Source of the DNA: Stella humosa
GTDB taxonomy: Bacteria; Pseudomonadota; Alphaproteobacteria; ATCC43930; Allostellaceae
DNA: 64,000 nucleotides
Assembly: GCF_006738645.1 (NCBI RefSeq)
Contig: NZ_AP019700.1
Coordinates: 1,996,001 to 2,060,000 of the forward strand
Direction of reading: 5' to 3'
Numbering within the stretch: the stretch's first letter is position 1; every line of letters starts with the position of its first letter. The notes under the pieces were generated by a model. The model was given only the letters and a program-made list of their open reading frames with translations. It was not told the DNA's origin and made no database searches. Below are positions 33,705-35,408 of this stretch, one piece after another. The translations under genes were made by a program, and so were the position numbers.

Positions 33705-35408
33705 ATGGCCGGACGGAAACCCTCGAACCTGGCGTTTGGCCTGGACGACAGGCCACCGCTGTCCGTAGTCCTGATTCTGGCCTTTCAGCACACCGTGCTG
33801 ATCCTGATGTTCATCGCCTATCCGCTGATCGTGGCGGCAGGGGCGGGCTTCTCTCCGGAAGCGACCCGCCATTTCGTCACCGCCACGATCTTCGCCATGG
33901 GGGTGGGCACGATCCTGCAGTCGTGGCGCCGCTTCGGCAGCGGCTACCTGTTGATCCACAACCCGAATCCGATCCACATCCCGACGCTGATCCAGGCGGG
34001 CTCGGTCGGCGGCCCGGCGCTGATCGCCACGCTCGGCCTGTTCAGCGCGGCCGTGCAGGCCTCCATGGGCCGCATCATCCGGCCCCTGCGGCGCCTGCTG
34101 CCGGCGGAGGTATGCGGCGTCACCGTCACCATGCTGGGCGTGTCGCTGATCGTGCCCGGGCTCGACCGGTCGCTGGAACTGTCGGCCGACCGGGCCGCAT
34201 TCCAGTCCGACAGCCTGCTGGTATCGGCCGTCACCCTGACCCTGATGCTGTCGGTCGCCATCTTCGCCAAGGGCACGCCCAAGCTGTTCGCGCTGCCGAT
34301 CGGCATCGGCGCCGGCTGGCTGCTGGCCATCGCGATGGGCCATGACGGGCCGACGCCGTCGGGCTCGATCGCATCCTTGCCCTGGATCGACCTGCCGCTC
34401 AGCCTGCCGGGCTTCGCGTTCGACATGGCGTTCCTGCCGGCCATCCTGCTGGGCGCCTTCATCGCCGCCATCGACACGCTGGGCCTGATGATCTCGGTCC
34501 AGCGGATGAACGATGCCGACTGGCGGCGGGCCGATCTGGCCGGCGTCTCCCGCGGCATGGTGGCCGACGGCACGAGTTGCACCATCAGCAGCGTGCTGGG
34601 GGGCATGCCGACGCATATCTCGTCGTCGAACGTCGGCCTGGCATTCGCGACCGGCGCCACGGCGCGCGTCATCGGCATGGCGGCCGGAATCATGCTGGTG
34701 GTGGCGGCCCTCTGCCCGCGGGTGGCGGCGACTGCCACCATGGTGCCGCAGCCGGTGCTGGGCGCCATCATCCTCTATTCGGCCGCCTACCTGATCACGT
34801 CGGGCATGGAGCTGATCCTGTCGCGCCGCCTCAGCGAGCGGCGGGTCTTCACCGTCGGCCTGTCGATCATCGCCGGGATCAGCCTGCTCGTGATCCCGCT
34901 GGTCTTCCGCGGCCTGCCGCCGTCGATCGCGCCCTTCTTCGGCTCGCCCCTGTCGCTGGCGGCCATCACCGCACTCTGCCTCAACCTGGTCTTCCAGATC
35001 GGCATCAGCCGGCAGGCGCAACTGGCGATGCCGGTCGGCGAGAACCCGTTCCTGGTGGTGCACGAGTTCCTCGACCGCCAGGGCGAGCTATGGGGCGCCA
35101 GGCGGGACGTCATCATCGCCGCCTCGCGCACCACGGCGCTGGCGGTGGAGGCCATCGTCGAGGCCGGGTTGGCGCGCGAGGCCGTGCGGCTCGACGTGCA
35201 GTTCGACGAGACCCATCTCGACGTCGTCGTCGCCTATGAAGGCATCCCCCTGGAGCGACCGACCGCCCAGCCGGCCCCGGAATCGCTGCTGGGCGACGAG
35301 CGCGACATCGGCCGCTATGTCGGCTGGACGCTGAGCCAGCTTTCGGATTCGCTGACGCTGCGCTCGGACGGCGAACGGCAGGCGGTCACCATCCGCTTCG
35401 AGCACTGA
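33705..35408 (+). CDS. NCS2-type (nucleobase:cation symporter-2) permease with C-terminal HATPase-like domain
   Basis: A 567-residue protein. Residues 20-435 form about 12-14 membrane helices with the NCS2/xanthine-uracil permease pattern: 'ILAFQHTVLILMFIAYPLIV', 'GVGTILQS', 'AFIAAIDTLGLMISVQRMN' and 'SSSNVGLAFATGATARVIG' (in place of the usual QNxG motif). Members move purines, pyrimidines or ascorbate-like compounds with protons or sodium. Residues 450-567 are soluble and resemble a GHKL/HATPase fold ('VRLDVQFDETHLDVVVAYEG', 'RYVGWTLSQLSDSLTLRSDG', then 'VTIRFEH') but lack the N-box Asn and the D.G.G motif. The SN-for-QN change makes the substrate uncertain. ACGGAGACC precedes the ATG. Single gene, 190 nt after aspS. 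Confidence 0.75.
   Translation: MAGRKPSNLAFGLDDRPPLSVVLILAFQHTVLILMFIAYPLIVAAGAGFSPEATRHFVTATIFAMGVGTILQSWRRFGSGYLLIHNPNPIHIPTLIQAGSVGGPALIATLGLFSAAVQASMGRIIRPLRRLLPAEVCGVTVTMLGVSLIVPGLDRSLELSADRAAFQSDSLLVSAVTLTLMLSVAIFAKGTPKLFALPIGIGAGWLLAIAMGHDGPTPSGSIASLPWIDLPLSLPGFAFDMAFLPAILLGAFIAAIDTLGLMISVQRMNDADWRRADLAGVSRGMVADGTSCTISSVLGGMPTHISSSNVGLAFATGATARVIGMAAGIMLVVAALCPRVAATATMVPQPVLGAIILYSAAYLITSGMELILSRRLSERRVFTVGLSIIAGISLLVIPLVFRGLPPSIAPFFGSPLSLAAITALCLNLVFQIGISRQAQLAMPVGENPFLVVHEFLDRQGELWGARRDVIIAASRTTALAVEAIVEAGLAREAVRLDVQFDETHLDVVVAYEGIPLERPTAQPAPESLLGDERDIGRYVGWTLSQLSDSLTLRSDGERQAVTIRFEH

Follow-up and report, generated by a model that had tools for sequence, protein, structure and literature searches.

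The locus studied here lies in a 64,000-nucleotide stretch of Stella DNA, called the window below. It is occupied by an intact open reading frame (33705–35408, forward strand) that starts with ATG and encodes an NCS2-type permease of 567 residues plus stop. Pfam named only the permease part of this protein (Xan_ur_permease, PF00860, 161 bits, residues 23–398). A full-length AlphaFold model (pLDDT 86, pTM 0.78) had a UraA/UapA (SLC23) membrane domain followed by a tail. The membrane domain comprises residues ~9–435 (33729–35009, forward strand), and its comparison by VIA-align with UapA (5i6c) and UraA (5xls) gave a Z score of 40.1 with ~400 residues aligned, which indicated that the UraA-type 14-segment membrane fold is present. 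Upstream of the permease gene is aspS, as it is in Stella vacuolata (L001) and a further Stella sp. (L002), whose permeases are 80–82% identical to that of the window. The genes on the other flank are on the opposite strand and resemble, by eye, acyl-CoA dehydrogenases.

The tail is a pseudo-RsbW/SpoIIAB domain of residues 436–567 (35010–35405, forward strand), as assigned from AlphaFold models, a PDB fold search and hhalign comparison with RsbW. An earlier note made on this DNA had recognized the extra domain but placed it at residues 450–567; the domain in fact starts at ~436, with its first strand at 436–443. This strand is followed by helices at 448–463 and 467–486, strands at 490–500 and 504–513, a short lid helix at 525–529, a helix at 532–546, and two final strands at 549–555 and 558–566. 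The peptides quoted in that note were found in frame within the reading frame. The dN/dS of the tail was ~0.2, with 74–83% identity to the tails of two other Stella species, and the core was much alike. Together with the intact frame, this value ruled out a frameshift or an untranslated tail, and it points to purifying selection acting on a translated domain. Whether the tail is conserved in the family, a question that the note had raised, was answered by its presence end to end, at 30–40% identity, in relatives from other Alphaproteobacteria and also from Beta- and Gammaproteobacteria. The Stella genome itself has three paralogues of the window permease, all with tails.

AlphaFold modeling of the tail from 27 tail sequences gave a pLDDT of 92; along the chain, the model has a strand, two helices, two strands, a short helix, a further helix and two last strands. 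The top PDB matches of this model were UsfX–RsfB (8ih8), SpoIIAB–SpoIIAA (1th8 and 1til) and RsbW–RsbV (6m36 and 6m37), and the top matches were thus mostly complexes with STAS antagonists (Foldseek E values 3e-6 to 1e-5; VIA Z 14.9, rmsd 2.0 Å, 116 residues). SpoIIAB, RsbW and UsfX headed both the Foldseek and the VIA searches, the latter with Z scores of 14–15, whereas generic histidine-kinase ATPase domains reached Z scores of at most 9 among the best 50 of the fold list. Based on this difference, the modeled tail is of the RsbW type, a more specific assignment than a GHKL-like domain. Fold comparison was needed here because HMMER searches of PDB sequences with profiles built from the tail alignments produced no meaningful match (none for the group I profile and two chance matches for that of group II).

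Two groups of tails were distinguished, group I with the window permease and group II with one of the Stella paralogues. Both matched a profile of genuine RsbW proteins, most members of which came from genes neighbouring related permeases, with an hhalign probability of 96.8%; the match covered the whole domain in each case and 134 columns in that of group I. The two groups matched one another at 88%, having matched at 22% in an earlier comparison with fewer sequences. The group I profile also drew in genuine RsbW domains from other genomes, of which one belongs to a PP2C-RsbW protein (L046) and another has a PP2C gene beside its own (L047). The window tail alone scored 13.3 bits against Pfam HATPase_c_2, under the cut-off of 27.4 bits, and the group II tail of L072 alone exceeded that cut-off with 32.1 bits. 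Chance resemblance to RsbW was excluded by the fold search, the profile-profile match and the L072 score. The earlier note was right that a degenerate GHKL domain is genuinely fused to the permease, and structure prediction with Foldseek identified that domain as the RsbW/SpoIIAB variant of the GHKL fold. The likeness to RsbW that it reported also held, but not its restriction to the end of the domain, as the whole RsbW domain is present.

The ATP site of the tail was examined using residue roles that we took from SpoIIAB, namely those of the adenine-binding Asp, the Mg-binding Asn and the catalytic Glu. By hhalign columns and column counts, the degenerate N-box (35139–35153, forward strand) has L479 at the position of the catalytic Glu and A483 at that of the Mg-binding Asn. 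In the degenerate G1 box, Y511-E512-G513 (35235–35243, forward strand), the column counts placed an aromatic residue at the position of the adenine-binding Asp, and the Gly is kept. All 40 distinct group I tails have Y, W, F or H in place of this Asp, and all 40 have A, V, L, T or another residue in place of the N-box Asn. GGLG was found in none of the 40, in contrast to ten genuine RsbW proteins taken for comparison, all of which had the N-box Asn and GGLG or GGVG. The absence of the N-box Asn and of the Asp had been reported correctly in the earlier note; the Gly of DxG is retained in 38 of the 40 tails (G513 in the window). Considered together, the modeled fold, the sequence profile and the motif loss identify the tail as an RsbW/SpoIIAB domain whose ATP site looks dead, and the tail is predicted not to act as a serine kinase towards STAS proteins.

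These losses bear directly on the nucleotide-sensing tail proposed in the earlier note, which would sense or bind a nucleotide and exert feedback on the transport of purines. The GHKL fold would suit such a role, as would the N-box Glu pair that group II tails retain. However, every distinct group I tail has an aromatic residue where the adenine-binding Asp would be and has lost the Asn and GGLG, and we consider nucleotide sensing by the tail very improbable.

The permease core of group I was also found to have diverged from that of tail-less relatives. At a position in TM8 that is Glu in 26 of 26 tail-less NCS2 proteins, none of 40 group I proteins has Glu; they have R, K, D, N, T or H instead, with D257 in the window (34473–34475, forward strand). 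Similarly, the Q-N of the NAT motif in TM10, present in all 26 tail-less relatives, is replaced by S308-N309 in the window (34626–34631, forward strand), and most group I proteins have S, G, A or P in place of the Gln. By reference to UraA and XanQ, we take both this Glu and this Gln to belong to the substrate site. Based on their loss, the usual nucleobase transport is doubtful in group I, and the possibility arises that the core is no transporter at all. In group II the TM8 Glu is present in most cores (at loci such as L055, L072, L079 and L145). This group, whose tails also keep the Glu pair of the N-box, may differ in function from group I.

In a tree of the cores, group I, group II and the tail-less proteins each formed one cluster, with support of 0.40 for group I and 1.0 for the other two. 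The tree was rooted at its midpoint, which leaves the rooting open, and its members had been sampled by similarity to the window permease. This topology fits a single ancient fusion of permease and tail, although it does not prove one.

Gene neighbourhoods were read over wide stretches at 64 loci with tail-bearing NCS2 genes (35 of group I and 29 of group II) and at 26 loci with tail-less ones. Genes for STAS, RsbW and/or PP2C proteins were present within 6 kb at 10 of the 35 group I loci, at one group II locus and at none of the tail-less loci, and several of the linked group I loci had all three. The difference between group I and the tail-less loci was significant by Fisher's test (p 0.002). 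A binomial test that took the STAS gene density of Stella as its baseline gave p ~2e-10 for the ten linked loci of 35, and p ~3e-6 when only lineages were counted (six out of ~25, an approximate number of independent ones). Curated Pfam models confirmed STAS, HATPase_c_2, SpoIIE and Response_reg domains in the linked genes. The permease was often separated by 4 bp from its STAS, RsbW or PP2C neighbours, and some of these genes overlapped it, which indicated that they form operons.

The gene orders varied around the same components. L005 had REC-PP2C, RsbW, STAS and two NCS2 genes; L060 had a DctP protein, a TorS-type hybrid kinase, REC-PP2C, RsbW, STAS and NCS2; L072 had Peripla_BP_6, HAMP-PP2C-RsbW, STAS and NCS2; and L056 had NCS2, STAS and RsbW. 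At L169 (4852–8357) and L170 (5021–8585, with small overlaps), STAS, the tailed NCS2 and a PP2C that probably includes a membrane part form one operon, with RsbW absent within 6 kb. At two further loci, L003 (5692–7563) and L007 (4378–6198), the gene of a HAMP-bearing Ser/Thr protein kinase is immediately 3′ of a STAS–NCS2 pair; both are from metagenome bins titled Bordetella parapertussis, a name that may be wrong.

Given this linkage in relatives to the genes of a partner switch, a regulatory role, which the earlier note had also proposed, is the best reading of the tail, and a permease carrying a dead RsbW tail probably takes part in RsbW-type signaling, either as an end point that can be switched or as a sensor. 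A dead RsbW domain cannot phosphorylate, yet it may still bind a STAS partner. The explanation that we favour, which rests on computational evidence and to which we assign roughly even chances, is that the tail docks an unphosphorylated STAS protein and that the permease is the output of the switch. The tail would then offer a docking site, anchored at the membrane, to an RsbV-like STAS protein, which a separately encoded, ordinary RsbW kinase would phosphorylate and a PP2C phosphatase, often with a response-regulator domain, would dephosphorylate. Only the unphosphorylated form would bind to the dead-kinase tail beneath the transporter, and its binding would alter the activity, stability or conformation of the permease. 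The corresponding position in the SigB switch of B. subtilis is that of the sigma factor. We infer the binding of STAS, the direction of control, the partner in Stella and the substrate, in contrast to the fold and homology of the tail, its conservation and lost ATP-site residues, and the linkage in relatives, which were demonstrated above. A counterpoint to the docking model is that most loci are unlinked within 6 kb: in group I this holds for 25 of 35, the window locus among them, and in group II for 28 of 29.

The majority of loci being unlinked would also suit a tail that serves as a scaffold for dimerisation or stability and has no regulatory partner, any operon linkage being residual or indirect. 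RsbW and SpoIIAB domains dimerise, which adds to the plausibility of such a role. It nevertheless seems unlikely to us; against it stands the repeated adjacency, in about six lineages, to genes for STAS proteins, to which the RsbW fold binds. Less likely still, and in our judgment scarcely credible, is a tail that acts as a membrane anti-sigma factor and sequesters a sigma factor directly. Complexes of SpoIIAB with SigF (1l0o) and of UsfX with SigF (8jzt) do rank among the top fold matches, but no member of a sigma-factor family was found among the 20 neighbour proteins scanned, which were part of the neighbours in the linked operons. In this respect the tail differs from the anti-sigma kinases RsbW, SpoIIAB and UsfX, with which it shares the whole fold and a colinear sequence profile; it also differs from them in being fused to a permease and in having lost the ATP and Mg ligands.

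The main rival to an output role is a sensor role, favoured by the loss of the substrate residues. Here the permease would be the input. It would resemble a transporter but work as a receptor, and the conformation imposed by its ligand would set how much STAS (or RsbW) the tail binds, with the switch acting elsewhere. Operon linkage does not separate these two roles. The disappearance of the TM8 Glu from 40 of 40 group I cores, with the NAT-motif Gln gone as well, when all 26 tail-less relatives keep both, is what a transporter-derived receptor would be expected to show, and the tail resembles a binding domain devoid of catalysis. On the other hand, several of the linked operons already contain other inputs, in the form of the TorS-type hybrid kinase and DctP binding protein upstream of REC-PP2C in L060 and the Peripla_BP_6 protein in L072, and the R or K of many members may reflect a different, perhaps anionic, substrate and not the loss of transport. 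We regard the input role as possible, with a probability well below that of the docking model. A similarly tentative extension would be a widespread proteobacterial class of receptors, in which NCS2 cores that have lost nucleobase binding would signal through a dead RsbW tail that captures or releases STAS, so that a transporter fold would work within a sigma-free partner switch, as its sensor or as its effector.

For Stella, the docking model would have the STAS partner supplied by an unlinked module, as no STAS, RsbW or PP2C genes were found beside the window copy (within 6 kb) or in the stretches read around its three paralogues. Several STAS and HATPase_c_2 genes are present elsewhere in the genome. 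The closest match to the linked modules, itself unlinked to the window permease, is at C1 ~589.7–595.1 kb (7976–15068 of L154, C1:580000–596000) and encodes RsbW, STAS, a TorS-type hybrid histidine kinase and REC-PP2C. Its STAS protein is 49% identical to the one beside the L056 permease. A Na/Pi cotransporter gene adjoins this module, and RsbW, STAS and a Na/Pi cotransporter likewise adjoin the L056 permease. It is a guess, based on these resemblances, that the window permease is served by this module. A second Stella cluster, in L156 (C1:2365000–2380000), has two STAS and three HATPase_c_2 genes and no link to NCS2.

A fusion of NCS2 with a HATPase domain was not found described in the open-access literature, a coverage that mostly leaves out subscription journals. 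Compared with the NCS2/NAT (SLC23) proteins UraA, UapA and XanQ, the window protein has the same membrane fold (Z 40) and Pfam family, but it has an additional C-terminal domain and, with the rest of group I, is without the TM8 Glu and the NAT-motif Gln. The SulP/SLC26 anion transporters, which carry STAS domains (PMC8256260), have a related membrane fold (Z 26–32) that is likewise followed by a cytoplasmic C-terminal domain of an anti-sigma system. Their tail, however, is STAS, the RsbV side of the pair, whereas the window tail is of the RsbW side, with the RsbW fold in place of a STAS domain. By analogy, STAS in cis in SulP/SLC26 and STAS in trans via a pseudo-kinase adaptor would be mirror arrangements if the docking model is true, one membrane fold bearing either half of the anti-sigma pair.

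A precedent for a STAS protein acting on a transporter in trans is MlaB of MlaFEDB, a stand-alone STAS protein that binds MlaF, the ATPase of an ABC transporter; MlaF depends on MlaB to be stable and functional (PMC7367683). That system differs in being an ABC transporter, and neither an RsbW-like tail nor a PP2C/RsbW module is described for it (PMC7367683). RbaYVW of Rhodobacter capsulatus and SypE–SypA of Vibrio fischeri resemble the modules described here in having PP2C, RsbW and STAS functions and no sigma factor; in both, unphosphorylated STAS is the effective output, and the target of RbaV has been drawn as “X” (PMC3999984). A permease is not known to have been described as a target of either. 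Sigma-free partner switches are known in several Gram-negative bacteria, and the targets of their STAS outputs are mostly unknown. A transporter with a dead RsbW tail, encoded in a switch operon, would be a concrete and testable kind of STAS target, and its tail is a naturally occurring pseudokinase whose predicted task is a simple one.

One further neighbour was considered as a general companion of the tailed permeases and rejected. A carbonic anhydrase gene adjoins the tail-bearing NCS2 gene only at L059 (7044–8126) and L172 (5837–6610), whose permeases are sister proteins from different classes. Its presence there hints at a role in inorganic carbon (bicarbonate) in that branch.
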